From assembly GCF_010671595.1 (NCBI RefSeq), contig NZ_JAABOP010000001.1, positions 930,001 through 994,000 of the forward strand: a stretch of DNA of 64,000 bases, given 5' to 3'. The DNA is from Muriicola jejuensis (GTDB taxonomy: Bacteria > Bacteroidota > Bacteroidia > Flavobacteriales > Flavobacteriaceae). Both the position numbers and the translations under genes were made by a program. Shown here in pieces: positions 1-35,800 of this stretch; position 1 is the stretch's first letter, and every line of letters starts with the position of its first letter. The notes below the pieces were generated by a model. The model had not been told where the DNA came from. It did not search any database and saw only the letters and a list, made by a program, of their open reading frames with translations.

Positions 1-1359
1 TAAATTATAAACCCACTTTAGCTTTTTTTGCTTCCAGGCATCCACTATGGCGAGGTATGCCTCGTGCTGGTGATACGGCAAGAAATAACTGCCGGGTTTC
101 AGGGGGTCCTCTGAATTTGCAAGCCATAATCTGGCAGACAGTTCCCCTTTATTAAATACCCAAATGGCACATCGGGTCAACTTCAGGTCCAGTTTTATCA
201 ACTCACCAAATACAGTTCCAATTAACTCCTTTAGTTCCTCCGAGTTTTGCATCGCCATGGCCCTTGCTCTTACTCGCTCCAGCCCTAACTCTATCTGGGA
301 TTCCCTTGCCTGCGCCTCAGCCTTTTCTATATCGACATACCGCTGGTAACTGAGGTTAAAGACATTGCGGAAGCGTTGCAGGATCTTCAACTCTTCGGGA
401 GACAGGGCACTGAAGGAAGATATACTCAAGGCCCCAAGGTCAATGGAATAGGAGTAATAGAACAGATTGTTGGCCGCCATGAGCTTAGGATCGGGTAGGT
501 ATCCGAGGGAATCCCTGTAGGTTCGCCATTCCTCCATTTCCTTTTCAGATATGAACACCTCAGCAAAGGCATCGTCAGCCTTTTTCATGACTGCTACCCA
601 CTTCTCAAGTACCGGATTTCCCTTCACCTCTATATTGATCACGCCGCTCACCCCGTAGTCGGAATAATAGTAGCTGATCAATTCATCTTTATGTTCCTGG
701 TTAAAGACGATCTCTGAATTACGGAGCTCACTGAAGCCCAGACTTTTCAGTTCCTCAAAGATCACCTCCCCAATTTTTGCCAGTTCGGACGAATGCCGCA
801 TAGACATGGAGACTGTTCGTACACGTTCCAGGGAACGCTCGATCTCGAGGTCCCTGTTGCGGTTCTCAAGTTCTATCGTACGCCTTTTGATGGCTTCCCT
901 GAGTTGAAGGTTTTCGGCACTGATCTGGTCAAAGCCTATGGTCTCCCCTTCCTCGGCCCTGGAATCAGGCATGGAGAAATGTTGGTATATAAAGCGCCAC
1001 CCCTCTTTATTCCTGCGTGCGATGGAACTGAATCTGAACCTGCCATAATAAGACCATTCTTCTCCATTGAGGAACCAGGCATCAAAGAAGTGGGTAATAA
1101 AGACCATACCTTCGAATTCTTCCAGGATCCGGATTTCATTCCTCAGATCGGTCTTATTGGCTAATTGATCTGCAGTCTTTTTAAAGAGTTGGGTGGTTTC
1201 TTTTTTATGAAGGAATTCTTCATTGTTCGTGGAACCAATAAAATGATATTCCTCATCGAGATAACTGTCATAGGTACCCACATCGCCCGTCAGGTAGCTG
1301 CGAAGCCACGTCTCGTATACGTGCAGAATTTCTTTTTCGGTTTTTGCGGAAGGTCTCAT
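1..1359 (-). CDS. SnoaL-like plus GAF-like repeat sensor protein, C-terminus outside window
   Basis: The reading frame stays open from an ATG at 1359 to the left edge (453 codons) with no stop, so the gene is truncated by the window. Residues 1-~130 look like a SnoaL/NTF2-type domain (DGEEW-like and HFFDAW-like stretches), followed by a charged helix and then two units of the repeat that fills the 3465-residue kinase further upstream in the operon. Each unit starts with a helix ending ERVRxxxMxM (about residues 184 and 368). The ATG is 5 bp after the stop of the preceding kinase gene, so it is probably the third gene of one operon. By analogy it may end in a histidine kinase module, but that part is not visible. 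No signal peptide or membrane segment is seen, which suggests a cytoplasmic protein. Confidence 0.8.
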   Translation of the reverse strand, partial: MRPSAKTEKEILHVYETWLRSYLTGDVGTYDSYLDEEYHFIGSTNNEEFLHKKETTQLFKKTADQLANKTDLRNEIRILEEFEGMVFITHFFDAWFLNGEEWSYYGRFRFSSIARRNKEGWRFIYQHFSMPDSRAEEGETIGFDQISAENLQLREAIKRRTIELENRNRDLEIERSLERVRTVSMSMRHSSELAKIGEVIFEELKSLGFSELRNSEIVFNQEHKDELISYYYSDYGVSGVINIEVKGNPVLEKWVAVMKKADDAFAEVFISEKEMEEWRTYRDSLGYLPDPKLMAANNLFYYSYSIDLGALSISSFSALSPEELKILQRFRNVFNLSYQRYVDIEKAEAQARESQIELGLERVRARAMAMQNSEELKELIGTVFGELIKLDLKLTRCAIWVFNKGELSARLWLANSEDPLKPGSYFLPYHQHEAYLAIVDAWKQKKLKWVYNL

Positions 1360-1364
1360 CTTGT

Positions 1365-4300
1365 TCAGCTTGAGGGGATTTGAACCGTGAAGGTCGTTCC
1401 TTCTCCGAGTTTGGTTTTCAATTTAAGTTCTCCGCCATGACCTTTGGTCACGATGTCATAGCTCATGCTCAGGCCCAGGCCGGTGCCCTGCCCAGTGGGT
1501 TTGGTCGTAAAGAACGGCTGGAAGATCTTTTCACGGATGGCCTCCGGGATGCCTTCCCCGTTATCTTTTACCGAAACCTCCACACCATTTTCTTTTTTGC
1601 GGGTGGTTACGGTCACTGTGGGCGTATACCCTTCCCTTTCCTTTTCCTTTTTTTCCTTTACCGCATAAAAAGCATTGGTGATCAGGTTGAGGATCACCCG
1701 CCCCATGTCCTGCGCCATTACATTCACTTTTCCGACATCCGGATCGAAATATGTCTCAAGGGTGGCATTAAAGCTCTTGTCTTTCGCACGAAGGCCGTGG
1801 TACGCTAGGCGAAGGTATTCGTCCGCGAGGGTGTTGAGGTCCGTAGGTTCCTTTTCCCCGCTTCCGCTCCGGCTGTGCTGCAGCATCCCTTTGACGATCC
1901 CATCCGCCCGTTGGCCGTGGTGATGGATCTTTTCAAGGTTCTGGACGATATCCTCTGCCAGGGTCTGGGCCTCTTCCATATCCCCTTTTTGAATTTCCTC
2001 CAGCATCTCCGCTATGAGTTCCTTGCTCACTTCAGAGAAATTGTTGACGAAGTTTAGCGGGTTCTGGATCTCGTGGGCGATGCCTGCAGTAAGTTCCCCT
2101 AAGGAAGCCATTTTTTCGGATTGGATCAGCTGGGCCTGGGTGGCCTTTAATTTTGTATAGGCCTTTTCGATTTCCCTGGCGTGCTTCAACTCCTTTTCTC
2201 TTGCCAATGCCTTTTCTTTTGCGAGGATCCTTCCCTTCTGGTATTTATCAAAGAAAAAGATGCCTAGGGCCAACAGTAACGTATAAAAAGCATAAGCCCA
2301 GTTGGTCTTCCACCAAGGGGGTGTTATAGAGATACCAAGACTTTTTTCCTCCCAATCACCAGTATTTCCAATGGCTGATCTATATGTAAGAGAATAGTTC
2401 CCAGGGGGTACCTTGTTGTAAGTTACTTTTTGTCCTGAAAGGCTTTCCTGCCATTCCGAATCATATCCCTGAAGCATATAGAATATCCGTTTCTTTAATT
2501 CCGCCCTTAGATCTACCGCGGCAAAGCTTAGACTGAAATTATTTTCATTGTAATTAAGACGAATTTTTCCTGCCCTATAAAGGGAGGTTTCAAGAATACC
2601 ATTTTCCCTTGCATAAACAGGCTCATTGTTCACTTTCAGGTCCATGGCATAGAGAGCCATCTTACCAGGAGATTTTTTAAATTCGTCTGGTTGAAATGTA
2701 TAGTACCCATTAGGACTACTGGCAAAATACATCCGGCCCTCCTTGTCTTTGTAGGAATAACTCAGATCAGGAAATCCGTTTGCTACAACACCATTTCTTA
2801 TACCGAAGATTTCTTTGTTTTTTCGGTCTGTTCCTAGCTTCACAATAGCTACATCCGTACCGATCCACAGATTATCCGCAGTATCGCCGGATAAGGTGTA
2901 TGTCCATTCTCCTAAAAATATGCCGGTTTCATCAATCTTAAAAGGAGACATCTTTGTCCAGCCCTTATCACTACTCCATAGGCCGGTATTTGCACCTGCC
3001 CATAGGATGCCTTTTTTGTCCACGTACAGATCCCTAATGGCAGGACCCGTGAAAACAAGATCTAATTGATCAGTTTGTTCATTCACATTATAAACCCCAC
3101 CTTCAACGGAACCAACCCATACTTTCCCTGATAAATCTTCAACAATTTTCACTCCCCAGCCTGCAGTGTCGGAGTAATTCATATGTTGATTTGTATATTT
3201 TTTAAAGGTTCCTTTTTTCCGATCCAATTTATGTACTCCATTTACGGTCCCGATCCATAAATTAGAACGACTGTCTTCATAGATATCGGAAATAAAGGCA
3301 TTTACTAAACTGCCGGAATCATTCGTATCTGGCATAAACCTGGTAAAAGAGTTAGATGGCTCATTAAAAAGATTAAGCCCATTGTAAGTACCAACCCAAA
3401 GATTACTTTTCCTGTCTACAAATAGGTTTGTAATATGGTCATTACTCAGGCTTCTGGGATCCTTGTTATTGCTTGTAAATTTTTCAATCCTTTCTGTTAT
3501 TTGATTCTTTCTAAAAAGTCCCTTGTTATATGTTCCCATCCATAACTCGGAAGTATCCTTTACAACCAGGCTTCTAATTTGTACCCCATGTTGAATATTT
3601 GAGATTTGAGGAATATAAGGATCTATCCGAAAGAGTTTATTTTCCTGGGTAGAAATCCAGATAAGGCCCCCATCAGACACATGGCACCACCAGGAAGAAT
3701 TTTCCTTATAATTTCCAGATTGTAACCCCTGGGTGCCATAATGCGTCATGATATTTAAAAGAGGATTCCATCGATAAATCCCATCTGAATAGGTGCCAAT
3801 CCAAAGATATCCTTCTAAATCTTCGTGAATAAAAGTGATATGTTGCATATTAATGGTTGATTCGGGAATGCTGAAGGCTGGGAATTCAGGATTGAATTCA
3901 TAGCGGGTAATTTTCCCGGTCTTCCGGTCCATTTTATGAAGCCCATTTTTATTTGTGCCAATCCAGAAATTACCCCGACTGTCTTCACAGATAGCCCGAA
4001 CCTGATTTGCCTTTAGGCTATTGGGGTCCTCTGAATTGGACATATAGCGGGTAAATGCATTGGTAGCAGGGTTATAGCGGTTTAATCCTCCTTCACCCGC
4101 ATTATTCCAGGGGAAACCCGTGCCTATCCATAGTGTGTTCTCCGAATCTTCATAAATAGCCCTCACGACATTATGACTGAGGCTGGAGTCATCCCTTTCA
4201 TCATTACGAAAATGGGTGAACTTCCCTGTAGAAGGATCTAATTTATCCAGACCCTTATCTGTCCCTATCCAAACCATTCCATCATGAGCTACAAGTATGG

Positions 4301-4736
4301 CACTTACACCACCATCACTAAGGCTCTCCGGGTCATCGGGATCATGTGTATAATGAGTAAAACTTTCCGTATCAGGATCGAAATGATCTACTCCCTTGTC
4401 GCTATATCCTATCCATAATGCCCCGTCAGAATCGGCCGCAAAACATTCGGGATAAAATCCACCCAAAGCATTTTCTTTTTCCGGATCAAACGCAAATCGT
4501 TTCATCTGACTTCCGTCATAGCGAAGAATACAGCGGTTGGTCTGATCGGAAAACCAGATAAAACCATAGCTGTCTTGTATGATTGCATTGATCTTCCCCA
4601 GTGAAATGTCGTCCACCTTTGAGATCTGTTCAAAATGCAACTTTTCTGACTGCGCTTTCATAGAAAGTATTGCACTCCCCCAGAACAAAATCAGGAAGAT
4701 GACACTTGAAGTCCAAATATCTTTTCGTCCTGTCAT
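1365..4736 (-). CDS. Membrane sensor histidine kinase with two-component-regulator propeller
   Basis: 1123 residues. An N-terminal signal/anchor (about 1-29, ending SMKAQ) precedes a periplasmic propeller made of repeated WIGT-type strands (for example [14 protein letters not shown]), typical of Reg_prop repeats. A Y_Y_Y domain follows (around 715-780), then one membrane helix (about 790-812), a coiled coil, the HisKA box [14 protein letters not shown] with phosphoacceptor His888, an N-box (LNLITNAF) and G-boxes ([16 protein letters not shown]). Unlike classical hybrid two-component proteins of Bacteroidetes it has no receiver and no AraC HTH, so it must signal through a separate response regulator. 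Its ATG overlaps the stop of the upstream giant kinase (ATGA), so the two are translationally coupled. The kinase module is very close to that of the upstream protein. The ligand is unknown. Confidence 0.92.
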
Positions 4737-7700
4737 GGCTTATCGTTCTTGGTCTCTGTAGGCAGACAGATGGTAAATACCGTCCCAACCCCCTGTGTGG
4801 TGTCGACCTCCAAAGAGCCTCCATGCCCTTTGGTCACGATGTCGTAGCTCATGCTCAGGCCCAGGCCCGTCCCCTGCCCGGTGGGTTTAGTGGTAAAGAA
4901 GGGCTGGAAGATCTTATCCCGTATGGCTTCCGGGATGCCGTTGCCATTATCCTTGACAGCTATCTCAACCCCTTTCACATTTTTACGGGTGGTCACAGTT
5001 ACCGTGGGCATAAATCCCTCACCGGCCTTTTCTTTCTTTTCCTTCACTACGTGAAACGCATTGGTGATCAGGTTGAGGATCACCCGACCAATCTCCTGGG
5101 GCACTACTCTTATCTTACCGAGGGATTCGTCAAATTGTGTCTCCAAAGTGGCATTAAAGCTCTTGTCTTTGGCCCTGAGGCCGTGGTAAGCCAGTCTGAG
5201 GTATTCATCTGCCAAGATGTTGAGGTCCGTGAGTTCTTTTTCCCCGCTGCTGGCTCGGCTGTGCTGGAGCATCCCTTTGACGATCCCATCGGCCCGTTTT
5301 CCGTGATGGTGGATCTTATCCAGGTTCTGCTTGATATCCTCCATGATGGCCTTCACTTCTTCCAGGTCACCCTTGTTCATTTCTTCTTCCATCTCCTCCA
5401 TGAGTTCTACGCTCACTTCCGAAAAATTATTGACGAAGTTCAGCGGGTTCTGGATCTCGTGGGCGATGCCTGCAGTGAGTTCTCCTAAGGAAGCCATTTT
5501 TTCGGATTGCACCAGCTGGTTCTGGGTAGCCCTGAGTTCATTCAATGTCTTTTCGACCTGTTTTTTGGTCTTTTCGAGCTTTGCAAAATCCTCATATCTG
5601 GCGTAGGCGATGGCAAAGGCATCGGCCAGGGAACCTACAGCTTCCATTTGCTCCTGATCCAGGGATACCGTATTGCCCACATAAAGCATCCCCTGTGTAA
5701 AGGGTAGAAAATGCAGGAAGAGGGAATCCGGCGGCTGTTCGGCACCCTGGTACTCTCTATTATCACGGACCTGTCCGAGGTCCATCATGGTAGCCATAAA
5801 CGCGAGAAATTGTCCCTTGTCCCAATGGGTGCGATATACTTCTCCCTTTTTCCAGTGGGCGACGGTTGCAGCAGTATCCTTGTCCGCATCAAACGGGATC
5901 TTCATAGCGCCGAGCGACCTCCCGTCCGGAGCAGACAAAAAGGCCTGAACCGTTCTGCTTGATTCGTCCACAATAAAGACCCCACAGCGAATGAACGGGA
6001 CACCCAGTGCCGTGAGTTCGTTCCAGATCAGGGGGGTGATTCGTTCAAGGTCTTCCGTGGAACGCATGCTCGCGATCTGCCCGCGCACGCGGTCTAAAGA
6101 AGCTTGTTTCAGTGCTTCACGGGCTCTCTCCTCGGCCTGTTGAAGATCGAGGAAGCGTTGATACAATCGCCCGAACTCTTTGGCAAAACGGATCACGATC
6201 TCCTTTTCTTCTTGCGTGGCCTTTCGGGTCTGATTGATCCCTATATACCCGTACTTGCAGTGCCCTTGGGTGGTATACAACCCATCGGGAAAGTCCGAGG
6301 GCCTAATTTTCTGATCCTCAGGAAGTGCAGACATCACCTCATCCATCAGCTCCCAGACATAAGGCAGGATCTCAGGGGAATAGTCAATACAGTCCACTGC
6401 ATGAAGATCGCTTCTTTTCCAATTCTCAAAGGATTGTTTCCAGCTTTCCACGGCATTGATATCAATGCGTTGTTCGGCTATGGTCCTTTCATTTCCGCCC
6501 CTTGAGATCCTTAGTGTAAAGGTCTCGTTTTCCTCATCCATCAGGGTGAGATGCGTAAGGACGGGATTGATTCCAAGAAAGTCGAACTGGTCGAAAAGGA
6601 CCCCGAGCTCCTCCGTGAGTTCATCAGATTGGTGCATAGCCATCGCACGGGAACGCACCCTTTCCAGCGCAACCTCGATCTGAGCTTCCCGGGCCTGAGC
6701 CTCAGCCTTTTGCAGGTCGAGAAATCGCACATAGGTCTGCTGAAAAACCTTGGCAAAACGTTCAATTAGCTCTAATGTCTCCGTTTCCGGAGGTTCATTG
6801 GTGGTGATCCCTATACAGCCGTGGGAGAAAAAAACAGAGTTGATATACCGGTGCTCGCTTAAGCGGGCTTTGTCGAACGGGAGTCCAATTTCCTCTTCCA
6901 TATAACGCACCCATTCCTGCAGTTTTTTGCCGTGGAGGTCCTGCACAATGAAGCGTTCTTTCCCCCATGCATTGAATACTTCTTTGACCACAGGCGACTT
7001 GTCTACCTGAAACATAAATCGCTTGCTCACCTCATGGCCCTTTTGATCTGTCACCCAGATATCAAAGAACGCTTCTTCCCTATTGCCAATGGCTATATTG
7101 AACCGCTCCGGAGCATAGGTAAGGGCACTGATCTGTTCAAAAAGAACAGCCGCCACTTCCCCCAGTTCCTCACTTTTGTGCATGGCCATGGTACGGGCGC
7201 GAACCTTCTCCAGGGCCATTTCTATTTTGGCTTCCCGGGCCTGTTCCTCCGATTTTTGCAGGTCCATAAAGCGGATGTACGCCTGTTCAAAGACCCGCGC
7301 AAAGCGTAAAAGAATTTCTTTTTCAGCTTCAGAAGGCAGGTTTCCTTCCAAAGAAGGAACCATGATCGCTGAATTTTTGGCCCAGGCAAAAGCTAATCCA
7401 TGACTTTTACTATCGAGTAATTGTTTTTTGTATTCATCGGGCAAGTTTCGGTAGTCCGAAATTTCGAATGCTTTTTTAAACCACGCATTTTTAACCTCAA
7501 AAGAAAAGTCTTTAGCGAAATACGTATCCCCCCGGAGTTTAGATTCCCAGGCTTCATCAAAAAGGGTGTCCTCAAAATAGGGAAGAAAGAAGGGAACCGA
7601 AGGATGTTTTGGATCTTCCGAAGCGGTCCAGTGGATAACGTCTTTTGAATCGTCAAAATAGGTACAGAGTACTACACCTCCCACATCCAGAACTACGCCT

Positions 7701-10700
7701 AGTTTCTTTAATTCTTCCGCGACTACTGCCACCACTTCCTGCAGTTCATCCGGCTTTTGCATGGCCAGGGACCGGCTGCGCACTCTTTCCAGAGCCGACT
7801 CTATTTGGGCCTCCCGGGCCTGAACTTCCGCTTTTTCAATATCGATAAAGCGCTGGTAGAGTCTTTCGAATTCGGTAGCGAATTTTTTGAGGATCTCCTT
7901 TTCTTCCTCTGTAGGTACCCTTATGTGATTAAACCCGATAAAGCCAAACTTACAATAACCCTGTACGTTGTAACCGCCCTGAGGTAAGTCTTCCGCCTTG
8001 ATCCTTTCTTCCTCCGGCATGGCCGAAAAGGTTTCGGCAAATACCTCCATAAGCTGTGGTAGTATCTCAGGGGGGTAATGGGTAACAATGACCGCCTCTG
8101 CGGTCCCCTTCTCCCATTGTTCCACACTTTCCTTCCAGATATCCATGGCGTCCAGATCGATAACCTGGTGCTTGTGAATCCTTTTACCGCTCGTACCCGT
8201 CGCCCGGTAGGTGAAGGTACGATCCTCTGCATTGTACAGACTTAGCCAGACATTGATGGGACGGATACCCAGGACGTCAAACTGCTGGAACAGGACCGCC
8301 AGTACATCCGATAATTCTTCTGATTTTTGCATTCCCATGGCCCTGGCACGAACGCGTTCCAGGGAGGCCTCGATCTGGGCTTCCCGGGCCTGGGCTTCGG
8401 CTCTCTCCAGATCCCTGAATCGGATGTACGCCTGTTCAAAGACCCGGGAAAATCGCTTCAGGATCTCATTGTCCTCCTCAGAATACGGCTGGTTCGTGTA
8501 GCGAAGGATTTGAATGCTGGAATTCCTGGCAAAGGCGATGGAAGTGGAAAAGGCCTTTGAGGTTTTCATCTTCTTTTTAAGGGCAGCCGGAAAACTGCCA
8601 TGGGTTAGCAAATGATTGATATATTCCTCTTTTACCTTGCCTGTATACGTCCTGGCAAACAGCTCGGGCCTATCCTTGATCGCCTTGTTGTAATCCCGCT
8701 GAATTTTGGTCTGTTCGTTGTATGGGATCCTTAAGGCCTTTCCAAAAGGGACACCCCCCACCCAGACGTCGTAATCCTCCCTGGCTTCAATCGCCCCGCT
8801 CATCCCCACGGCTTCCATATCCAGCCCCAGCGCATGCAGTTGTTCGTAGATCGCATTGGCCACCTCCTGCATTTCACCTGTGGTATGCATGGCCAGAGAC
8901 TGGGATCTCACTTTTTCGAGGGCTGCTTCAATGCGCGCTTCCCGCGCCTGGGCCTCCACTTTCTGGAGATCCAAGAAGCGTTGATAGACCCTGGTGAACT
9001 CCGTGCAGAATCTGGAAAGTATCTGTTGTTCTTCCTCTGTCGCCTTGCGTTGATGGTCATAGCCTAAATAGCCAAAAGGGGTATATCCGGCTATGGAATA
9101 CCCCCCTTCGGGAAAGTCTTCGGGGCCCATGCGATCAGCTTTGGGCATGGACGAGAAGGTTTCGGAGAAAATACCAAAAAGTTGAGGCAGCACTTCTCTG
9201 GGATAAAAGATCATTTCAACGGCATCGGAATTGTCGGTGAGCCATTTGTCATAAAGCGCCCGGAGTGCTTCCATGCTATCCACTTCCACCACCTGTTTCC
9301 CGGGTATTCGCTTTCCCGATTTCCCGGATGCCCTGTAGGTAAGCGTTCTTTTCTCTCGATCGAATAAACTTAAGAATACATTGACCGGCTGAATCCCCAG
9401 ATCGTCAAATTGTCTGAATAAGACCCCCAGAACTTCATGCAATTCATCGCTGGATTGCATGGCTAAAGATCTGGCTCTAACCCGCTCAAGTGCGAGTTGT
9501 ATTTGTGATTCCCGGGCCTGGGCTTCGGCTTTCTGCAGGTCGAGATAGCGGGTATAGGTCTGGCCAAAGACAGCGGCAAACCGGACAACTACAGAGCGGA
9601 TTTCATCTTTTAATGGAGCCTCAGTAAATACGAAAAGAGTTCCGTCCTTAAATACAAAACTATTGTGGTATACTGACTTAGGAAGGGCATCCAAGTCAAA
9701 ATGAACCGGGTAATCCGGAGCTCTATTTAAGATATTGAAGTACTTTTTTACCTCGGTGCCAATAAGCTCATAGGAAAAAGTCTTTGCCTTTCTTTCCCAG
9801 GTCTTTTTAACTCCTTCCAAAAGAGGATGCAGCGACATATCGAGAGTGCCTGAGTGCAGGACCGTTTCTGAGTCATCCTTTACCGAGGCGGTCCACAATT
9901 CCATGTGCTCTGACTGACTCAGGATACCTATGCCGCAACGAATGGAGCTATCCGGATGCAGACCCATAAGCTCATTAAAAAAGGTGGTAACGGTAGCGGC
10001 AATATCTTCCGTATTGTGCATGGCCATGGTCCTTGCACGAACGCGTTCCAGGGCTGCTTCTATCTGGGCTTCCCGAGCCTGGGCTTCGGCTTTCTGCAGG
10101 TCGAGGAATCGACGGTAGATCCTGCCGAATTCCCGGGAGAACCTCACGATGATCTCATTCTCCTTCTCCGTACAGGGTCGGGTATGGTTAACCCCCAGAA
10201 ACCCGTATTCATTCGTGCCATGGGTGGTGTAGATCCCGTCCGGAAAATCTTCCGGTTTGATCTGATGCTCCTCCGGTACCGAGGTGATAGCTTCCTTTAA
10301 GATCTCAAAAATATCAGGCAGGGATTCCACCGGGTAATGGATGAGTTCGATATCTTCGGATCGCTGCTCCTTAAAGCGGTGTACCACGTCCATCCAGATA
10401 TCAGTAGCTGAAAAGTCTACCGTTTGTTGCCCGATGGCCCTGGCCCCTCCCTTACCAGATGTGCGATAGACAAACCGGTTGTTAGGCAGGTCGAAAAGGG
10501 TAAGAAAAACATTCACGGGTTTGATCCCCAGCACATCATACTGCTGGAAGAGTACCGAAAGCATATCCTGTAGTTCTTCCGAGTGATGCATGGCCATCGC
10601 CCGGGCCCTCACCCGTTCCAGGGAAGCTTCGATCTGGGCCTCCCGTGCCTGGGCTTCGGCTTTTTGCAGGTCGAGGAAACGCTGGTAAACCCGTCCGAAT

Positions 10701-13700
10701 TCATTGGCGATTCTAACCACGATCTCTTTTTCTTCCTCCGTGGGTGGTCGATTGTGATTAAATCCGATATATCCAAACTTGCAATATCCCTGGGTGTTGA
10801 AAATACCATTTGGAAAATCTTCCATCCTTACCGGGTATTCCTCGGAAATGGATGAGAATGATTCTTCGAAGAGCTCCCAGATCTGGGGTAGAACTTCTTT
10901 GGGAAATTCGAGACAGGAAACGGAATTTGGCTTGGAAGTCTTGAAGGCTTTAACCGCATCCTGCCATTCTGGTCTCGCATCGAGGTCCACCACCTGGCCC
11001 GAAAGTCTGTTGTTCTTGTCAGCCCTGGACATTCTATAAGTAAAGGTGTTCTCCTCCAGATTGATCAGGCTAAGATGTGCCCATACAGGATTGATTCCCA
11101 GTGTGTTGAATTGCTCGAATAATACCGATAACACTTCATTTAGTTCACTCGATGCATGCATGGCCATCGCCTTGGCCCGTATCCTTTCAAGTGAAGCCTC
11201 AATCTGGGCTTCACGTGCCTGGGCCTCTGCCCTTTCCAGATCCATAAATCGGATGTAAGCTTGCTCAAAAACACCGGCGAATCGTTTCAGGATCTCAGCA
11301 TCTTGATCAGTATAAGGTTGATCCGAATAGCGCACCACCTGAATGCCGGAATTCTTTTTAGGGGCGATCAGGGTGGTGAAAGCGTCGGATGTTTCCATCT
11401 TTTTTTTAAGCGCTTTCGGAAATTCCCCGTGGGTAAGCAATCGGTCGATGTATTCCTTTTTGACCTGACCCGAATAGGTTCTGGCGAAGAGTTCCGGCCG
11501 GTCTTTAAGCATCTTATTGTAATCGCGCTGTACCTGTGTATCCTCGTTATAGGGAATTCGCAAAGCCGATCCCAGGGGTGCACCCCCTATCCAGACATCG
11601 TAGTCCTGTTTGGCCTCAATGACCCCGCTCATGCCAACGACATCCATTTCCATGCCCAGGGCCTGGAGCTGCTCAAAAACCGCATTGGCTACCAGCTGCA
11701 TTTCGCTGGTGTTGTGCATAGCCAGGGACTGGGACCTCACCCTTTCCAGAGCCGCTTCAATCTGGGCTTCCCGGGCCTGGTTCTCTGCTTTTTCAATATC
11801 CAAAAATCGTTGGTATACTCTTTCAAACTCCCTGGCAAACCTGATGACGATACTGATCTCCTCCTCAGTGGGCGGTCTAGAATTGTTAAACCCGATATAG
11901 CCAAATTTGGTGTGCCCTTCACAATCGAAAACCCCGTTTGGAAAATCCTTAATCCTAATCCGCTCCTTTACAGGAAGTTTCTTTAGTGATTCATCGATCA
12001 AATTCCATAGATCGGGTAAAATTTCCGGGGGATAAACGAGGCATTGATGACTGTGAGGTTTAGCTTTCTTCCAATTCTCCACGGTTTCCTTCCATGTGGG
12101 CATGGCATCGAGGTCAATGATCTGTTCACCAATATTGGCGGCTCCGCTCTTCCCGGTAATTCTAAAACTGAATTTGTTGTTGTCTATATCCATTAGGGTA
12201 AGATGTGCAGATTTCGCATCTATACCTAACAATTCTATTTGCCCAAACATCACACTCAGCACATCATTGAGCTCATCCGAAGCATGCATGGCCATGGACC
12301 GGGAACGAATCCGCTCCAGCGAAGCTTCTATCATTGCCTCCCTCGCCTGCTTTTCTGCTTTTGCCAACCCCAGAAAGCGGATATAAGCTTGTTCAAAGAC
12401 GTTAGAAAATCGTCTCAGGATCTCATTTTCATCAGCACTGAATCCTGTATTATCTTCGGAAAATTGCAAGAGGGCTATTCCTGAATGTTTTGCCAATGCT
12501 ACGGAATAGACGGCAGATTTGGCTTTAAGTGCATAATTTTGCCTGCCTTCAGGAATTTCAATTTTTGTATTCTTAAGGAGATGGCGGTAGACACGATCCT
12601 TTTCTTTTTTACTCATCCTGGGGATGGCAAAAAAGTTTTTGTTTTTCTTTCGGGCCTCATAAATACCGTCAAATATTTCGTGTTTGATATATGGAAAGTA
12701 AATTTCATAGGGATACATACCCCCATCCCCTGCGATCCACATATTCAAACCTTTATCATCCCCTTCCTCAAACCGGAATAAGTGGGCAGCATCGATATTC
12801 AACCCTAGGCTGTTAATTTCCTGTAATACGGTTAATACCACCTTATGCAATTCCTCACTTTTGTGAATGGCCATGGAAGCCGAACGCACTCGTTCCAGTG
12901 ACGCTTCGATCTGGGCCTCCCGGGCCTGGCTCTCTGCCTGTTTCAAATCGAGGAACCGCTGGTACAGCCTGCCAAACTCTATAGCGAATTTCCTTACGAT
13001 CTCTTTCTCTTCCTCGGTGGCCCTTCTGGAATGGTTGAAACCGATATAACCAAACTGGCAATGCCCCTGGGTGGTATAGATGCCCTGGGGAAAGTTTTCT
13101 GCCTTTATTTTCGAATCAGGGGGCAGTTTACTGAAGATCGGTTTCATGATCTCAAAGACCGCCGGCACTACCTCCGGTGGATAGTCTATGCAGTCTACGA
13201 TCCCCGGATCCCCTTTTTTCCATTTTTCATACGAATCATACCATGCGGGGTAGCTGGCCATATCAATGATTTGTTCTGCAATAAGGCGCTGCCCTGAAGT
13301 ACCTGTGATCCTGAACGAGAAAGTGTCATCCGCCTCATTGAAGAGGGTTAAATGAGCAAAAGCCGGATCAATTCCCAGGATATCAAATTGCTTGAAAAGC
13401 AGTGAAAGTACATCCGTTAACTCATCCGTTGTTTGCATGGCCATGGTCCTGGCACGGATCCTTTCGAGGGAGAGCTGAATCTGTGATTCCCGCGCCTGGG
13501 CTTCTGCTTTTTTTAAATCCTCAAAGCGTCGGTATGCAAGATCGAATGCGGCACCCATTTTGGTGAGTATGGTTTTCATTTCCTCCGGAGGCGCATTCAA
13601 TAGATCGATTGCTAATTTTCCATTATTCAGTCTTTTTACCGCATGATGTAACCTGCTTAATTGAGTTTCTTCAATAAATGCCTTAACCTCATCTGCGATT

Positions 13701-15130
13701 TCACCCTTATCCTGTTCACGAAGCCAGGCAATTATTCTTGTAAAATCTTTATGATCCTGTTCTTCGAAAAAATAATCCTCTTGATTTTCCCATACGCGTT
13801 TTACATATAAATGAGGATCTCTTTTTTTAAGTTTAAACGTGATGTCAAATGGAACTTCATAGTCATTATTGTCTTTCTCAAGCGAGGATAAATCCCACAT
13901 CCGGACCTTATTTTCTTCCGCCTCAAGAAAAATGGTTGCTGCTATTACATCCGGAATTTCTAAGGACATCACTTCATTTTTTAGTGTTGCCACTACTTCC
14001 ATGATCTCCTCCGACCTGTGCATGGCCAATGCCTTGGCCCTCACACGTTCTACTGCCAGGTTTATTTGAGCCTCCCGGGCCTGGGCTTCTGCTTTTTTTA
14101 AGTCCAGGAACCGGGTATAGGTCTGTTCAAATACCTTAGCGAAGCGCTTAAGGATCATTTCCTCCTCCTCCGTTGGCTTTGACTTCCCCGATTTACACAA
14201 GGTGCCATACTTGTTATTGGCCTCAATGAATTCCAGGGTATCCGTTTGTAGTGAATCCATGATCCTCAGAAAATAATCGGTCTTTGCGGCTTCACTACAC
14301 ACCTTCATGAATTCCTCAATTTCATCTCGGGATTCAAATGAGACGTAATTAACATCCGATCCCGCCCTCCAGGATTTCAAGGAGGTCTCCTCAAACAAAG
14401 ATGCGGGGAATGAAATACAGATGGGTTCATCGTTGAGTCCTTCGAACCGACTGAACCAGACATCGAGGTACTCCTGGTCTAGGTAAAAAATAGAGATCCA
14501 GGTTTGAATGAAGTCGAGATTTAAAACTTTCAACTGGTCGAATAACACCTTGACCACTTCGGAGACTTCATGAGTATGTTGCATAGACATGGATGCAACC
14601 CTGACCCGTTCCAATGCGGCTTCAATTTCCAATTCCCTGGTTCTTTCACGGATCTTCGCTTCCAGTTCTTCATTTTTCTTCCGCAGGCCCTCCATGGGAA
14701 AGGCTTCCTCTTCGGCTATATCCGAATCGGGTGTGGAACCGTGAAAATGGGTAATCACCCACCTGTCTGATACTTTTTCAAGAATGGTAGAAAGTCTGAG
14801 CGGCAGGTTGTGATCATTGTCCTCAATATAGAGTTCAAAATCCTCCAGGATCAGGAATGCAGATCCATCTGACAATAATTTTTCAATAACAGGTTTTCGT
14901 GTCAGCTTGAATTTTGTTCCCTTTAATTGTTCAGCCTGTAGTTTCGCCATCCCCTTTACGGCCTCCCCGTCTTTAAAAAATTCATGTGCGGCGGTACCGT
15001 ACCCCAGGAAATCAGGATGTATGATCTCATCGAGTTCTTCGATGGACGCGAAATCGAAAAAGACCTCGATCACTTTGTTGTATACAGTGCGGGCCTCAGT
15101 GGCAATCTTTCCTCGGGAGGTTGGTTTCAT
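4733..15130 (-). CDS. Giant soluble histidine kinase with 16 tandem GAF-like sensor units
   Basis: 3465 residues, with no signal peptide or membrane helix. Residues 1-~150 resemble SnoaL/NTF2. From ~165 to ~3165 there are 16 units of about 190 residues, each opening with a charged helix (consensus [12 protein letters not shown] then LERVRARxMAMH) and closing with FxRxYQRFLDL. Units 3, 5, 7, 8, 10, 12 and 15 share DFPxGxYTTQG plus FGYIGFNH; units 6 and 11 share VGMSG and ALRIPYNE; the rest are divergent. The C-terminal module is HisKA ([14 protein letters not shown], phosphoacceptor His3224) and HATPase_c ([24 protein letters not shown]). Position and fold pattern suggest GAF/PAS-like sensors joined by signalling helices, but no ligand-binding residues were recognised. 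It is the first gene of the operon and probably feeds the same pathway as its neighbours. Confidence 0.9.
5630..14650 (-). repeat. 16-unit coding tandem repeat inside the giant kinase
   Basis: The DNA coding for the MAMH/ERVR helix recurs at about 14578, 14019, 13434, 12864, 12284, 11715, 11156, 10586, 10017, 9457, 8884, 8328, 7757, 7177, 6635 and 6063, that is every 542-585 bp. The helix-coding segments stay recognisable as DNA, while the domain-coding segments have diverged strongly between unit classes. Two further units lie in the partial gene at 1-1359 (near 798 and 249). The order of classes (A B A at units 3-5, A B' A at 5-7, A B' A at 10-12) suggests that multi-unit blocks were duplicated. 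Confidence 0.9.
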
Positions 15131-15777: not shown

Positions 15778-15790
15778 TGTGCTTATCTGT

Positions 15791-15860
15791 AGCCTCACCA
15801 GGAATCGAACCTGGATCTAAAGTTTAGGAAACTTCTATTCTATCCGTTGAACTATGAGGC
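15791..15860 (-). tRNA. tRNA-Arg (anticodon CCU)
   Basis: Read on the minus strand, the acceptor GCCTCAT pairs with GTGAGGC (one G-U), the T arm is CCAGG-TTCGATT-CCTGG, and the anticodon arm GAAGT-TTCCTAA-ACTTT gives anticodon CCU (codon AGG). CCA is not encoded. Its 5' half is copied twice upstream. Confidence 0.93.
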
Positions 15861-15878
15861 CGTAATGGGGATGCAAAT

Positions 15879-17463: not shown

Positions 17464-20400
17464 ATGAAAAAAAGAATCCTCTTCTCACTGATTTTCGTCT
17501 TGATCGCTTCCTTCGCCTTTTCACAAAGAAACAGAGGAGGAACAACTCCCTCTGAAACCAGGGAAAACAAACTCTCCCTTGATGGGCTTAAGCTCAGAAA
17601 CGTTGGGCCGGCCTTTCTGTCCGGAAGGATCGCAGACATCGCCATTCACCCAGACGATCCCAATATCTGGTATGTGGCCGTCGGTTCCGGAGGGGTCTGG
17701 AAAACCGAAAACGCTGGTACTACATGGACCCCGATTTTTGACAAGGAATCTACTTATTCCATCGGCTGCCTGACCATAGACGCTAACAACCCTTCCACCA
17801 TCTGGGTGGGAACCGGGGAAAACGTCGGTGGGCGTCATGTGGCCTGGGGAGATGGAGTATATAAAAGTGAAGATGGTGGCAGCAGCTGGAAAAACATGGG
17901 CCTTAAATCTTCAGAGCATATTTCCGAGATCATCGTTCACCCGGAAAATCCGGACGTGATCTGGGTGGCAGCCCAGGGGCCGTTATGGAGCAAGGGGGGT
18001 GAACGGGGATTGTACAAATCCGTTGACGGAGGCTCTACCTGGAAAAAAGTCCTGGGTGGTAATGAATGGACCGGGGTCACCGATATCATGCTAGACCCCA
18101 GGGATCCAGACCGGATCTACGCTGCAACCTGGCAGCGGCACCGAACCGTGGCAGCCCTTATGGGCGGTGGGCCCGATTCTGGCCTGCACCGTTCTGAGGA
18201 CGGGGGTGAAACGTGGGAAAAATTGAGTTCGGGCCTTCCCAATTCCAATATGGGAAAGATCGGGATCGCCATTTCTCCTCAGCATCCCGATGTGGTCTAT
18301 GCAGCCATCGAACTTGATCGCACAAAAGGGGCTGTCTACCGCTCTGAGGACAGGGGCGCTTCCTGGAAAAAGATGTCGAATACCGTCTCCGGAGGTACCG
18401 GTCCGCATTACTATCAGGAACTGTACGCAAGTCCACACGCTTTCGACCGGCTCTACCTTATGAACGTACGCATCCTTACTTCCGATGACGGGGGTAAGAC
18501 CTTTGCCGAGTTACAAGAAGATGAAAAACACTCGGATAACCATGCGATCGCCTTCAGACCGGATGATCCGGATTACCTGCTCGTAGGTACGGATGCTGGG
18601 ATCTACGAAAGTTTCGACCTGGCAAAGACCTGGCGCTATATCAAAAACCTGCCTCTTACCCAATTCTATAAGGTGGCGGTCAATAACCAGAAACCTTTCT
18701 ACCATATCTTCGGGGGAACCCAGGATAATGGTTCTGCAGGAGGGCCATCCCGTACGGATGAAAGACAGGGAATCCGCAATGCCCACTGGTACAAGACCCT
18801 CGGGGCAGACGGTCACCAGTCGGCCACCGACCCCGTGCACAATCACATCATCTATGCAGAGACCCAGCAGGGGGGGCTGCACCGTGTGGACCTGATCACA
18901 GGGGACCGGGTTTTTATTCAGCCACAGCCAAGAGCTGGCGAACCTCATGAGCGCTTTAATTGGGATGCCCCCATTCTGGTGAGTCCGCACAAACCTTCAC
19001 GCCTTTATTTCGCTTCCTACCGGGTATGGAAATCAGAGGACAGGGGAGACAGCTGGACCCCCATCTCCGGAGACCTCACCCGAAACGAGGAGCGGATCAC
19101 CCTCCCCATCATGGGTAAACAGCAGAGCTGGGACAATGCCTGGGACGTAGGGGCCATGTCTAATTACAATACGATCACCTCTCTCTCGGAATCCCCTGTC
19201 CGTGAAGGCGTAATCTATGCCGGAACGGATGATGGTTTTATTCAGGTGACTTCCGATGGTGGAGGCAGTTGGAACCGTATCCCTGTCACCAGCTTCGGTC
19301 TGCCTTCCAGTTCCTTTGTCAATGACATCAAAGCAGACCTATTTGACGAGAATACGGTGTATGTTGCACTGGACAATCACAAAGAAGGCGACTTTTCAAC
19401 TTACCTCTATAAAAGTACAGACAAGGGAGCTACCTGGAGGTCCATCAAAGGGGATCTGCCAGACAATACCCTGATATGGAGATTGGTACAGGATCACGTC
19501 AAAAAAGACCTGCTATTCCTGGGTACTGAAAAAGGGCTCTACACTTCCATGAATGGAGGAGTGAACTGGCATAAAGTGCCTGGAGCGCCTACGATCTCCT
19601 TCAGGGACCTCACTATCCATAAAGGAATGAATGACCTGGTAGGAGCCTCTTTTGGCCGTGGATTTTTTGTGCTGGACGACTACAGTGCCCTCAGAGAGAT
19701 GACCGATGCAACCCTGAAAAAAGAAGGATCCCTGTATTCCACGAGGACTGCCCCCTGGTATGTCCCCAAAGATGTGGTCGGAAATACCGGCGCTGATTAT
19801 TACTTTGCCGAAAACCCCGATTTTGGAGCCTGGTTCACCTATTCCCTGGCAGAAGGTTTCACCTCTATGACCAAGGAGCGAAAGGACCGTGAAAAGGAAC
19901 TCGAAAAAAGGAATGCCTCTATTCCCTTCCCAGGCTGGGATGCCCTGGAAGAAGAGAGGCGGGAGGCAGATCCCAAAATCTGGATCACCATCCGGGATGA
20001 AAGGAACAACGTGATCCGCAATGTGGAAGGCACTTCTAAAAAAGGCCTGAACAGGGTTGCCTGGGACCTGAGACACCCGAGCAGCAGGGCCATCAGGCCG
20101 GGACAGGAATCCGGAGGCGGGAATTCCTGGTGGAATTCTGGACCCTTGGCTATGCCAGGCACTTATACAGCCACCCTCTCCAAGGAGGTGGATGGGGTGG
20201 TCACCCAACTCGATGGGCCCATCACCTTTAAAGTAGAACCCTTGTTCGAAAGTACCCTTAAAGGGGTTTCCTATGAGGATTACAATGCATACATCTCCGC
20301 TTATAATGAGGTCTCAACCCAAGAGAATATGGTTTCGGATGTTTTGGAGAGGAGTATGGACAAGGTAAAGGCGATGCAAGTGGCCCTTAACCGGACCCCC

Positions 20401-20730
20401 GCAGCGCCAGGTACCATGGCTTCCAAACTCCACGACCTGCAACAAAAACTATTCGCATTTGAAGAGAAGCTGGAAGGAAACAAATCGAAAGACGAGATAG
20501 GAGAAAGAAATCCTCCCACCGCGGGGGATCATCTGAGTGTGGCCAGACGCGGACTTTCAACGACCTATGGCCCAACGCCCCTCCACAAGCAAAGTCTCGG
20601 GATCGCAAAGACCATGATGGCCTCCCTTTACACGGAGATCGGTAATATAGGGAATACCGTTATTCCGCAGCTGGAAAGTGAATTAAAGGCTATGGGAGCC
20701 CCCTATATCCTGGGGCAGGGTATTGATTGA
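17464..20730 (+). CDS. Exported VPS10/BNR-repeat protein (sortilin-like propeller)
   Basis: 1088 residues with a signal peptide (MKKRILFSLIFVLIASFAFS). About eleven Asp-box (BNR) motifs of the form SxDxGxxW are visible (SEDGGSSWKN, SVDGGSTWKK, SEDGGETWEK, SEDRGDSWTP, STDKGATWRS and others) up to about residue 700, forming one or two beta-propellers. The C-terminal third holds an Ig-like/FlgD-like segment (GLNRVAWDLRHPS, AMPGTYTATLSK) and a charged helical end. Such proteins are often labelled glycosyl hydrolase, but no catalytic residues could be assigned, so VPS10-domain protein is the safer name. No type IX sorting tail is evident at the C-terminus. The gene is monocistronic, ended by the terminator at 20752. 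Confidence 0.85.
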   Translation: MKKRILFSLIFVLIASFAFSQRNRGGTTPSETRENKLSLDGLKLRNVGPAFLSGRIADIAIHPDDPNIWYVAVGSGGVWKTENAGTTWTPIFDKESTYSIGCLTIDANNPSTIWVGTGENVGGRHVAWGDGVYKSEDGGSSWKNMGLKSSEHISEIIVHPENPDVIWVAAQGPLWSKGGERGLYKSVDGGSTWKKVLGGNEWTGVTDIMLDPRDPDRIYAATWQRHRTVAALMGGGPDSGLHRSEDGGETWEKLSSGLPNSNMGKIGIAISPQHPDVVYAAIELDRTKGAVYRSEDRGASWKKMSNTVSGGTGPHYYQELYASPHAFDRLYLMNVRILTSDDGGKTFAELQEDEKHSDNHAIAFRPDDPDYLLVGTDAGIYESFDLAKTWRYIKNLPLTQFYKVAVNNQKPFYHIFGGTQDNGSAGGPSRTDERQGIRNAHWYKTLGADGHQSATDPVHNHIIYAETQQGGLHRVDLITGDRVFIQPQPRAGEPHERFNWDAPILVSPHKPSRLYFASYRVWKSEDRGDSWTPISGDLTRNEERITLPIMGKQQSWDNAWDVGAMSNYNTITSLSESPVREGVIYAGTDDGFIQVTSDGGGSWNRIPVTSFGLPSSSFVNDIKADLFDENTVYVALDNHKEGDFSTYLYKSTDKGATWRSIKGDLPDNTLIWRLVQDHVKKDLLFLGTEKGLYTSMNGGVNWHKVPGAPTISFRDLTIHKGMNDLVGASFGRGFFVLDDYSALREMTDATLKKEGSLYSTRTAPWYVPKDVVGNTGADYYFAENPDFGAWFTYSLAEGFTSMTKERKDREKELEKRNASIPFPGWDALEEERREADPKIWITIRDERNNVIRNVEGTSKKGLNRVAWDLRHPSSRAIRPGQESGGGNSWWNSGPLAMPGTYTATLSKEVDGVVTQLDGPITFKVEPLFESTLKGVSYEDYNAYISAYNEVSTQENMVSDVLERSMDKVKAMQVALNRTPAAPGTMASKLHDLQQKLFAFEEKLEGNKSKDEIGERNPPTAGDHLSVARRGLSTTYGPTPLHKQSLGIAKTMMASLYTEIGNIGNTVIPQLESELKAMGAPYILGQGID

Positions 20731-32800: not shown

Positions 32801-35800
32801 ATGAAAACATTCTATATTCTGGTGCTCCTCCTTGTAACCGGTTTGGCTACAGGACAGGGGACTCAGCTCCTCAGGCAGCCCACCATTTCCGACGAGAAAA
32901 TCGTCTTTGTCTACGCCAATGACCTCTGGATCGTACCGGTCTCAGGTGGACAGGCGCAGCGTCTGACCAGCAATGAGGGTTACGAATTCTCTCCCCATTT
33001 CTCGGATGACGGGTCCTGGATCGCCTTTACCGCAGAATATGACGGCAACAGTGATGTCTATATCATCCCGGTGGGAGGTGGGGAACCCAAAAGACTTACC
33101 TGGCATCCCGGTGACGATGTGGTACAGGGCTGGACCCCCGATGGAAAAGTACTGTTCCGTTCAGGCAGGGAAGCGCGCCCCACGCAGACCAATAAACTTT
33201 ATACCGTTTCACCTGAAGGTGGATTGCCCCAGGCAATCGCTGTTCCCCGTGCGGCCTATGGGGAGATCTCTCAGGACGGGAAATATGTAGCCTATACCCC
33301 GATCACTTCATGGGATCCCGAATGGAGGAACTATCGCGGTGGACAGGCCATGCCTATCTGGATCGTCGATCTGGCCACGGGTTCTTTGCAAAGAACCCCC
33401 CAGCCTACCGCGGAAAGGCACCTCGACCCGGTCTGGTACAACGGCAAGGTCTTCTATCTCTCCGAGCGCGATCTGGCCAGCAATATCTGGTCCTTTGATC
33501 CCGCAACGGGACAGGAACAACAACATACCTTCCACAAAAAGTTTGATGTAAAAAGCCTGGATTCAGGCCCGGGAAGCATCGTGTATGAACAAGGCGGCTA
33601 TCTCCATATCCTGAACCCGGAAACCAATGCCACAAGCCAGCTCGTTGTGGAGGTCAGAGGGGATATGAATTTCGCAAGGCCCCGGTGGGAAGAGGCCAAT
33701 GGCAATGATCTCGGGAATGCGGGCATATCGCCCAGTGGAAAAAGGGCCCTTTTCGAATACAGGGGGGAGGTCTTCAGCATTCCTAAAGAGAAAGGGACGT
33801 ATCGAAACCTCTCCAATTCCCCGGGGGTCGCAGACCGCTACCCGGTATGGTCCCCCCAGGGAGACAAGATCGCCTGGTTTTCGGACGCAAGCGGGGAATA
33901 TCAACTGGTGGTCACTGACCAGGAAGGACAACAATCCAGGAGTTACCCTCTTCCGAACCCCACTTTTTATTTCCAGCCAGACTGGTCTCCGGACGGAAAC
34001 TATATCGCCTATTCCGATACGGATTACAACATCTGGATCATAGAACTCGGCAATGGAAGTGTTTATAAGGCCGCGACGGACCGATATGCCCATCCCGACA
34101 GGACCATGAACCCTGTCTGGTCACCGGACAGCCGGTGGATCGCCTATTCCAAGCAACTCAACAGTCATTTCAAAGCGGTATTTGCCTACGATGTTCAATC
34201 CAAAAAAGAATGGCAACTCACCGATGGGATGGCAGATGCCATCAGTCCTGTCTGGGATGAAGGGGGAGAATACCTATACTTCCTGGCCAGCACCAATTAC
34301 GGCCTGCAATCGGGCTGGCTCGACATGAGTTCCTATGACCCCCAGGTAACGCGTAGGCTCTACGCTCTGGTCCTTTCGGCCTCCGGAAAAGCTCCCAACC
34401 TTCCAGAATCAGATGAGGAGAAAAAGGCTGACACTCCGGATCCTGCAGAGAAGAAAAGCAAGAAAAAGGGAGAGGATGAAGAAGCCGATAAGAAGGTCGT
34501 TGTCAAAATAGATCCCCAGGGTATTTATTCCCGTATCATCCCCCTGGAACTGGCAGAACGAAATTATGTGTCCCTTGCCAAAGGGCCAAAACACCAGTTG
34601 TTCATAGCCGAAAATGTCCCGAACGAACGAAATCTCAAGATTCATTCCTACGACGTCAAAAAAGAGAAGGCAGAGGAATTCGCCACCAATATTTCAGAAT
34701 TCATCCCTTCCTCAGACCGGAAGAACGTCTTGCTGAGACAAAATGGGGCCTGGTTCATTTCAGAGACCAAAGGCAGCTTTAAAAACAGTGAAGGAAAACT
34801 GGATACAAATATCAAGCTGAAGGTGGACCCACAGGCGGAGTATAAACAGATCTTCAAAGAAGGCTGGAGGTTTATGAGGGATTTTCTCTATGTGGACAAT
34901 GTTCACGGGGCCCCTTGGGACCTTATCTACCAATGGTATTCCCCCTGGATAGACCATGTGCGTCACCGGACGGACCTGAACTATGTAGTGGATATCATGA
35001 GTGGAGAAGTGGCGATCGGGCACTCCTATGTGTCCGGGGGCGACTTCCCCGATATTGAAAATGTTCCCGTGGGCCTGCTGGGTTGCGAACTGGAGGTGTC
35101 TGATGGCCTGTACAAAATATCCAAGATTTATACAGGAGAACAATGGAATCCGGACCTCGACGCCCCCCTTCACCTCCCCGGCATCGATGTGAAGACAGGA
35201 GACTACATCCTGGCGATTAATGGGAAGAAACTGACCTCGGCGATCAATCCGTACAGCTTGCTCGAACAGACCGCAGAGCGGGAAATACAACTGACCATTT
35301 CATCGACTCCCGACGCCGGTGGGGCCAGAGAGATTCTGATCAGACCTGTGCGCAATGAGTATATGCTCAGGACTATGGACTGGATCGAAGGCAACCGTCG
35401 GAAAGTAGATGCCCTTTCAGGAGGCAAATTGGCCTACGTATATGTCCCAAATACAGGTGGCAGGGGCTTTGAGTATTTCAACCGGTATTACTTTTCACAA
35501 CAGGACAAGAAAGGGGTGATCATTGACGAGCGGAATAATGGGGGTGGATCGGCCGCAGACTATATGATCGACATCATGGACCGCACCCTCCTGGGATACT
35601 TCAATAGCAAGGCGAACGACAATCGTCCCTGGACCACCCCTATGGCCGGAATATGGGGCCCTAAGGTGATGATCATCAACGAAAGGGCAGGTTCGGGAGG
35701 GGATCTGCTCCCCTATATGTTCAAGGCCAAAAATCTGGGTCCGCTTGTAGGTACGCGCACATGGGGTGGACTGGTAGGCACCTGGGACACACCCCGGTTC

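Follow-up and report, generated by a model that had tools for sequence, protein, structure and literature searches.

Tandem GAF domains joined by helices are found in the phosphodiesterases PDE2A, PDE5A and PDE6 and in a cyanobacterial adenylyl cyclase (1ykd), with two GAF domains in each case. A 64,000-nucleotide stretch of the Muriicola jejuensis genome (contig NZ_JAABOP010000001.1, positions 930,001 to 994,000 of the forward strand; hereafter the window) encodes a 3465-residue protein in which sixteen units of the same predicted fold, likewise joined by helices, stand in a row and end in a kinase output. Phytochromes and cyanobacteriochromes, the top Foldseek matches of the modelled units (1ykd is also among the matches), likewise sense with a GAF fold, frequently in one chain with a histidine kinase, and carry far fewer GAF domains per chain than the array described here. 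In two-component kinases, shuffling usually involves whole sensor regions. Recombination gives rise to new sensor combinations there, as it does here; in the present case, however, it is single units within a long array, some of them at least, that change places at a fixed joint. The S-helix, a helix of about 40 residues between signalling domains (PMC1592074), is like the array joint in length and position only; it joins a sensor to an effector, whereas the helix described here links sixteen like domains. No description of such arrays or of cassette exchange was found in the literature searched, which was available in part and outside which most subscription journals and preprints lie. Comparison with related genomes shows that single cassettes of the array come and go and that some have passed from species to species, the breakpoints falling at the joint or close to it; the cassette adjacent to the kinase keeps its place.

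The gene is a single stop-free frame starting with ATG on the minus strand of window positions 4733 to 15130, the plus strand of which contains many stops. Its first-pass annotation as a soluble histidine kinase with 16 tandem units held up. The entry motif (ERVR-like) and the exit motif (YxRFxDL-like) each occur 16 times, at the unit borders, the entry motif starting at the first residue of every unit (from residue 174 in unit 1 to residue 3013 in unit 16; Table 1). An extra ERIR-like string at residue 1056 lies inside unit 5 and starts no unit, and unit 16 is degenerate at both ends. The array is preceded by a SnoaL-like domain and a helical stretch, and is followed by a HisKA domain with its phospho-acceptor histidine and by a HATPase_c domain, and the motifs DNGNGIP and GTGLGL were recognised by eye; the protein is thus a HisKA histidine kinase. 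There is no evident membrane helix, because the highest 19-residue Kyte-Doolittle mean is only 1.42. The units are 182-195 residues long and 14-73% identical in pairs and, as had been noticed earlier, they fall into classes: seven belong to class A, characterised by DFPxGxYTTQG and FGYIGFNH (mutual identity 42-57%), and four to class B (34-38%, except units 6 and 11, at 73%).

So long a frame could conceivably be an artefact of assembly or of reading frame, and several of the congeners compared below are indeed fragmented draft genomes. We regard such an artefact as very improbable, because eight of the nine genomes of the genus and named isolates carry the units, the latter in long arrays, and because the units differ, no two of the sixteen being more than 74% identical. 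Moreover, the frame runs uninterrupted within a contig of 1.79 Mb, the genome of the key partner (G002) consists of one contig, and divergence at third codon positions is of the coding type.

The class A unit had remained without a name in the first-pass annotation, which considered GAF, PAS or a new fold and proposed a Foldseek search of single units and a model of three consecutive ones. We modelled unit 8 with AlphaFold2 from an alignment of 110 relatives and compared the model (predicted local distance difference test score (pLDDT) 95.8, predicted TM-score (pTM) 0.89) with solved structures by Foldseek and VIA. Seven Foldseek matches had E below 0.001 (1.5e-4 to 7.4e-4), all of them GAF-bearing phytochromes or ptsP GAF domains. 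The VIA comparison gave Z 12.7 for Cph1 (8rvx; root-mean-square deviation (rmsd) 4.0, 172 residues aligned), 12.3 for 3k2n (rmsd 3.5, 157 aligned) and 12.1 for PDE6C (rmsd 3.9, 180 aligned), with phytochromes close. Since the model, a sheet flanked by helices, can be superposed on solved GAF domains and its best solved matches carry such domains, the unit is assigned a GAF fold, which names the class and rules out a new fold for it. A model of units 5 to 7 was built from an alignment of 100 rows, six of which cover about two thirds of the query, are probably shifted by a unit and were kept (pLDDT 93.4, pTM 0.80). In this model, the exit helix of a unit passes unbroken into the entry helix of the following one, which gives helices of 48 residues (169-216 and 355-402). 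Superposition of two of the modelled units on the PDE2A tandem GAF pair (3ibj) gives Z 15.4 and rmsd 4.5 over 308 residues, and the rmsd to 3mf0 and 3lfv is 6.3. The arrangement is therefore that of tandem GAF proteins: two GAF domains, in similar orientation, on one helix. All together, the units modelled (5 to 8, four of the 16) have a GAF fold as predicted.

None of the units had a Pfam family above its cut-off and no GAF family reached E <= 1 with the whole protein; in NCBIfam, all 25 families listed of 68 match the kinase region and none the units. A search of PDB sequences with a unit profile gave no match below E 0.74, and 60 of the 61 matches listed for a phmmer search of the whole protein against PDB fall on the kinase. 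Within Pfam, these 25 NCBIfam families and the literature searched, no well-described family known in such long arrays was found, which leaves standing the earlier view that the array is unusual.

The joint and the core of the unit behave very differently. From an exit motif to the following entry motif there are 23 residues in each of the 15 joints of the protein and in all 719 junctions with readable motifs, of 737, in the wider family, across which unit length varies from 174 to 202. Alignment columns of the entry helix have an entropy of 0.67 bits, those of the exit helix and joint 1.15 and those of the core 2.98. The joint is thus fixed in length and strongly conserved in sequence, and the core is highly variable; the coiled coils between GAF domains, in contrast, are described as poorly conserved (PMC1592074). 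A possible reason for a fixed joint is offered by an engineered LOV kinase, the activity of which follows linker length with a period of seven residues (PMC6798134).

Arrays of this kind are not confined to M. jejuensis. Among 60 kin genomes, nine carry the units: its own, seven of the other eight from the genus and, elsewhere in the family, one of 28. Across a sample of the phylum, units were detected at E <= 1e-10 in 22 of 247 genomes (its own included) and 18 of 122 genera; at most 12 candidates were scored per genome, and the numbers of matches are not array sizes. Relatives were located with a pattern from a four-row alignment of the joint, in a scan that itself gives a lower bound, and the best 80 of 283 confirmed relatives yielded 76 distinct loci, some of which belong to a single genome (L040 and L058 lie on the same contig) or to near-identical genomes. 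The best loci include Cyclobacteriaceae, Flavobacteriaceae, Chitinophagaceae, Saprospirales, Rhodothermaceae and Ignavibacteria. The first-pass annotation had called for a survey of long arrays, and the length found here proved not to be unique: 43 of 62 complete frames with units among the fetched relatives have at least eight and 8 of 62 at least 16, the longest array being one of 22 units in a 4607-residue frame of Algoriphagus lacus. A kinase is present in 54 of the 57 complete frames with at least four units, and a SnoaL match in 16 of the 57. Within the genus alone, array length ranges from 5 to 17 units (17 in G004). Unit 16 used alone as query matched its own genome only, among 60 genomes of the class. 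A regular alternation of unit classes, to which the window had pointed, was discarded as a general rule: where an array has at least eight units, adjacent ones resemble each other more than those two positions away. Beside array kinases, five loci (L048, L074, L082, L083 and L086) hold frames of 428-457 residues that match only the SnoaL-like and kinase queries.

Array content was compared in G000 to G006 and in G033, from another genus, leaving aside G008 (two units, in a short frame) and G007 (none); the array of G005 ends at a contig end, and 11 of its 12 units were used. The tree and identity table hold 104 units from ten genes of these eight genomes. A reciprocal-best counterpart of at least 65% identity in some congener was found for 12 of the 16 window units (such pairs are not independent), often at another position and with other neighbours. 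At this level, G001 to G006 have 3, 6, 3, 8, 6 and 2 of the 16 units in common with the window and G033 has none, despite kinase modules that are 72-84% identical in the same comparison. The unit next to the kinase is different: the counterpart of unit 16 is last in all six congener arrays, at 70-85% identity, and the last unit of G033 is still 50% identical to it. For the genus pairs of at least 74% identity with comparable upstream units, the upstream neighbour is unlike (below 60%) in 71 and alike in 13, and codon identity drops from the orthologous to the background level between about -24 and +4 codons around the unit start. In the wider family, 846 of 923 reciprocal-best pairs are without a concordant upstream neighbour. 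The overall pattern is one of cassette gain, loss and replacement, with occasional moves.

Blocks of DNA of at least 84% identity between genes of different loci end for the most part close to the joints (genes with fewer than four units were excluded, and L044, L046 and L049 omitted as duplicates of G005, G003 and G004). Of 55 blocks, 34 span 200-280 codons, which is about one unit with both joints, and the median of all is 239. Relative to a unit start, 39 of 43 left ends lie at -40 to 0 codons and 44 of 46 right ends at -10 to +30. With the window set beforehand, -30 to +15, the counts are 27 of 43 and 25 of 46, where a uniform distribution would give 24%. The ends are blurred because the conserved joint allows alignments to extend.

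Exchange between species was judged with rpoB from 18 genomes as the yardstick. Unit 6 and unit 5 of G002 are 92% identical in amino acids, 89% in nucleotides and 76% at synonymous sites, against 97, 82 and 51% for rpoB of the same pair. Their neighbours are, from their sequences, plainly unrelated: identities are 25, 42 and 33% for the previous units and 23, 40 and 33% for the next. For ten further relatives, one or more units lie above the nucleotide identity of rpoB in 27 of 64 gene pairs; for instance, unit 5 of L106 and unit 7 of L055 are 94, 92 and 84% identical (amino acids, nucleotides, synonymous sites), compared with 92, 79 and 51% for rpoB. What should surprise a specialist in these results is that single cassettes are exchanged across a joint of fixed length.

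The explanation that we consider best, and on the whole probable, is that of a cytoplasmic sensor histidine kinase whose input consists of 16 divergent GAF-fold cassettes, exchange of cassettes and a relay along the array included. By analogy with tandem GAF structures and with the kinase module, the protein would be a parallel dimer along its helices. The cassettes may bind different small ligands, and binding would change the twist of the helix or the dimer contact on either side of the cassette; such changes might then sum along the stack at unit 16 and set the activity of the kinase at His 3224. From there, phosphate would pass to the receiver-nucleotide cyclase that closes the cluster (see below); two other kinases with a closely similar module may feed this protein as well. 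The joint of fixed length would act as a universal adapter, so that a foreign cassette would keep both frame and register on insertion, and the array could evolve as a swappable sensor panel. The first-pass annotation had offered two functions, the reading of many signals and a long relay; as judged from the sequences, the invariant joint fits the relay, and the variable cores, with the turnover and exchange of single units, fit many signals.

Several observations weigh against this explanation or parts of it. The TM-scores of the seven best Foldseek matches of unit 8 are modest (0.42-0.52 by query length) and a search with 111 units gave 66 Pfam families, of which the 25 listed include no GAF profile, the best listed being DUF3369 (E 8.3e-4, in one unit); the unit is a GAF fold outside the Pfam GAF sequence families, as far as these are listed. 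Prokaryotic inter-GAF coiled coils are reported to be antiparallel (PMC1592074), and the parallel dimer stays a proposal for this reason. The receiver-cyclase is present in only 11 of the 76 relative loci, in flanks of up to 10 kb. The second, shorter genes of G000 and G004 (5- and 6-unit) end in a unit other than unit 16, their last units being 91% identical to each other. As to exchange, 18 of the 55 DNA blocks span at least 360 codons and thus exceed one unit. The joint DNA as a homogenised recombination hot spot is unsupported: synonymous identity in the joint is hardly higher within a gene (0.472) than between genomes (0.448), and we claim no hot spot at the DNA level for this reason. No carrier was found either: viral contigs and plasmids (the plasmids by tblastn of units 6 to 8) gave no matches, and a phage or plasmid carrier was set aside. 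Finally, internal comparisons show the order kept in 91 of 114 cases within the genus and in 403 of 531 in the wider family (crossed in 23 and 128, respectively), and gain and loss account for much of what distinguishes the arrays.

This last point bears on a plainer account, in which units are duplicated and lost inside one vertically inherited gene and nothing passes between species. Besides the kept order of most common units, it finds support in the similarity of neighbours, which is highest on average (mean 83.8 bits at lag 1, falling to 68.3 at lags of at least 6), and in rpoB, which most common units of the window's genus do not exceed. Because only 3 of 21 gene pairs in that genus have units above the nucleotide identity of rpoB, lateral exchange is clear for some units only and is unproven for most. 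Nevertheless, we find plain birth and death unlikely: units reach 70-84% synonymous identity where rpoB stands at about 50%, with neighbours that are not reciprocal-best, as many as 27 gene pairs of the other relatives have units above rpoB, and the neighbours of window unit 6 are plainly unrelated.

Exchange of sensing cassettes must also be weighed against an account in which most units bind nothing. The array would then be a structural spacer, a rod or scaffold that sets a distance or clusters kinases, with only unit 16 (or the SnoaL domain) regulatory. The conserved helices and variable cores would suit a spacer, as would the spread of array lengths within one genus; moreover, the last unit tends to hold its position, since of the 102 reciprocal-best pairs with a last unit in them 57 are between two last units. 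However, third codon positions diverge by 0.488 and first and second positions by 0.133, the former more in 111 of 111 pairs, and the units are thus under purifying selection. Counterparts are up to 96% identical, which is more than a spacer needs, and recognisable core types recur across genera. A mere spacer is, in our judgement, doubtful.

Coming back to the sensor kinase, its gene lies in a cluster with two other kinases (Table 1). The last 4 bases of the 16-unit gene are also the first 4 of the propeller kinase gene; this kinase has six Reg_prop stretches, and no DNA-binding domain is among the families listed for it. The third kinase extends to the left of the window and is covered whole by L009 (9205-13359), where a gene for a fusion of a receiver with a class III nucleotide cyclase (Pfam; 7748-8788, minus strand) ends the cluster. 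Pairwise identities among the three kinase modules are 75, 75 and 86%, and 50 of the 76 relative loci have at least two frames bearing a kinase module of this type. From the gene order, the receiver-cyclase is likely the shared output of the cluster kinases; its product is presumably cAMP, as we guess from substrate residues.

Table 1. Positions in the window of the array kinase gene, its domains and units, and the neighbouring kinase genes.
Feature	Residues	Window positions	Strand	Remark
16-unit sensor histidine kinase gene	3465 aa	4733..15130	-	
SnoaL-like domain	26-135	14726..15055	-	Pfam SnoaL_3, E 6.4e-12
Unit 1	174-360	14051..14611	-	
Unit 2	361-555	13466..14050	-	
Unit 3	556-745	12896..13465	-	class A; 80% identity with G004 unit 1
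Unit 4	746-938	12317..12895	-	class B; 78% identity with G002 unit 1
Unit 5	939-1128	11747..12316	-	class A; first in three-unit model
Unit 6	1129-1314	11189..11746	-	class B; 92% amino acid, 89% nucleotide identity with G002 unit 5
Unit 7	1315-1504	10619..11188	-	class A; in three-unit model
Unit 8	1505-1694	10049..10618	-	class A; predicted GAF fold, modelled singly
Unit 9	1695-1881	9488..10048	-	
Unit 10	1882-2071	8918..9487	-	class A; 89% amino acid identity with G002 unit 2, neighbours unlike
Unit 11	2072-2257	8360..8917	-	class B; 73% identity with unit 6
Unit 12	2258-2447	7790..8359	-	class A
Unit 13	2448-2640	7211..7789	-	class B
Unit 14	2641-2822	6665..7210	-	
Unit 15	2823-3012	6095..6664	-	class A
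Unit 16	3013-3199	5534..6094	-	adjoins kinase
HisKA / DHp	3215-3296	5243..5488	-	Pfam HisKA, 29.3 bits (cut-off 26.9)
Phospho-acceptor His (H-box)	3224	5459-5461	-	by eye
HATPase_c	3344-3459	4754..5101	-	Pfam, 81 bits (cut-off 26.4)
Second cluster kinase: Reg_prop beta-propeller, HisKA, HATPase	1123 aa	1365..4736	-	Pfam
Third cluster kinase, 5' part: SnoaL, 5 units, HisKA/HATPase	1384 aa in full	1..1359	-	

Upstream of the array gene, the window holds a tRNA-Arg (CCT) gene (15789-15861, minus strand); tRNA genes are common integration sites. Elsewhere on the plus strand lie a frame of 1088 residues that matches Sortilin-Vps10/BNR repeats (17464-20730) and another of 1087 residues (32801-36064).

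Taking the comparisons together, we lean, with rather less assurance than for the array kinase itself, towards a plug-in sensor system: kinases widespread in Bacteroidota, in which GAF cassettes without a Pfam profile would be traded between species and genera via a helical adapter of fixed length, with up to 22 intracellular sensors on one kinase, in a panel that every lineage would put together for itself, and a coupling unit next to the kinase held in place. If this is true, a solution for stacking many sensor domains on a single kinase already exists in nature, in the form of an interchangeable joint. The array would then offer a direct test of the reach and additivity of a signal along coiled-coil helices and supply engineers with ready-made sensor parts, and it would be a case of lateral transfer acting on single domains within a gene.

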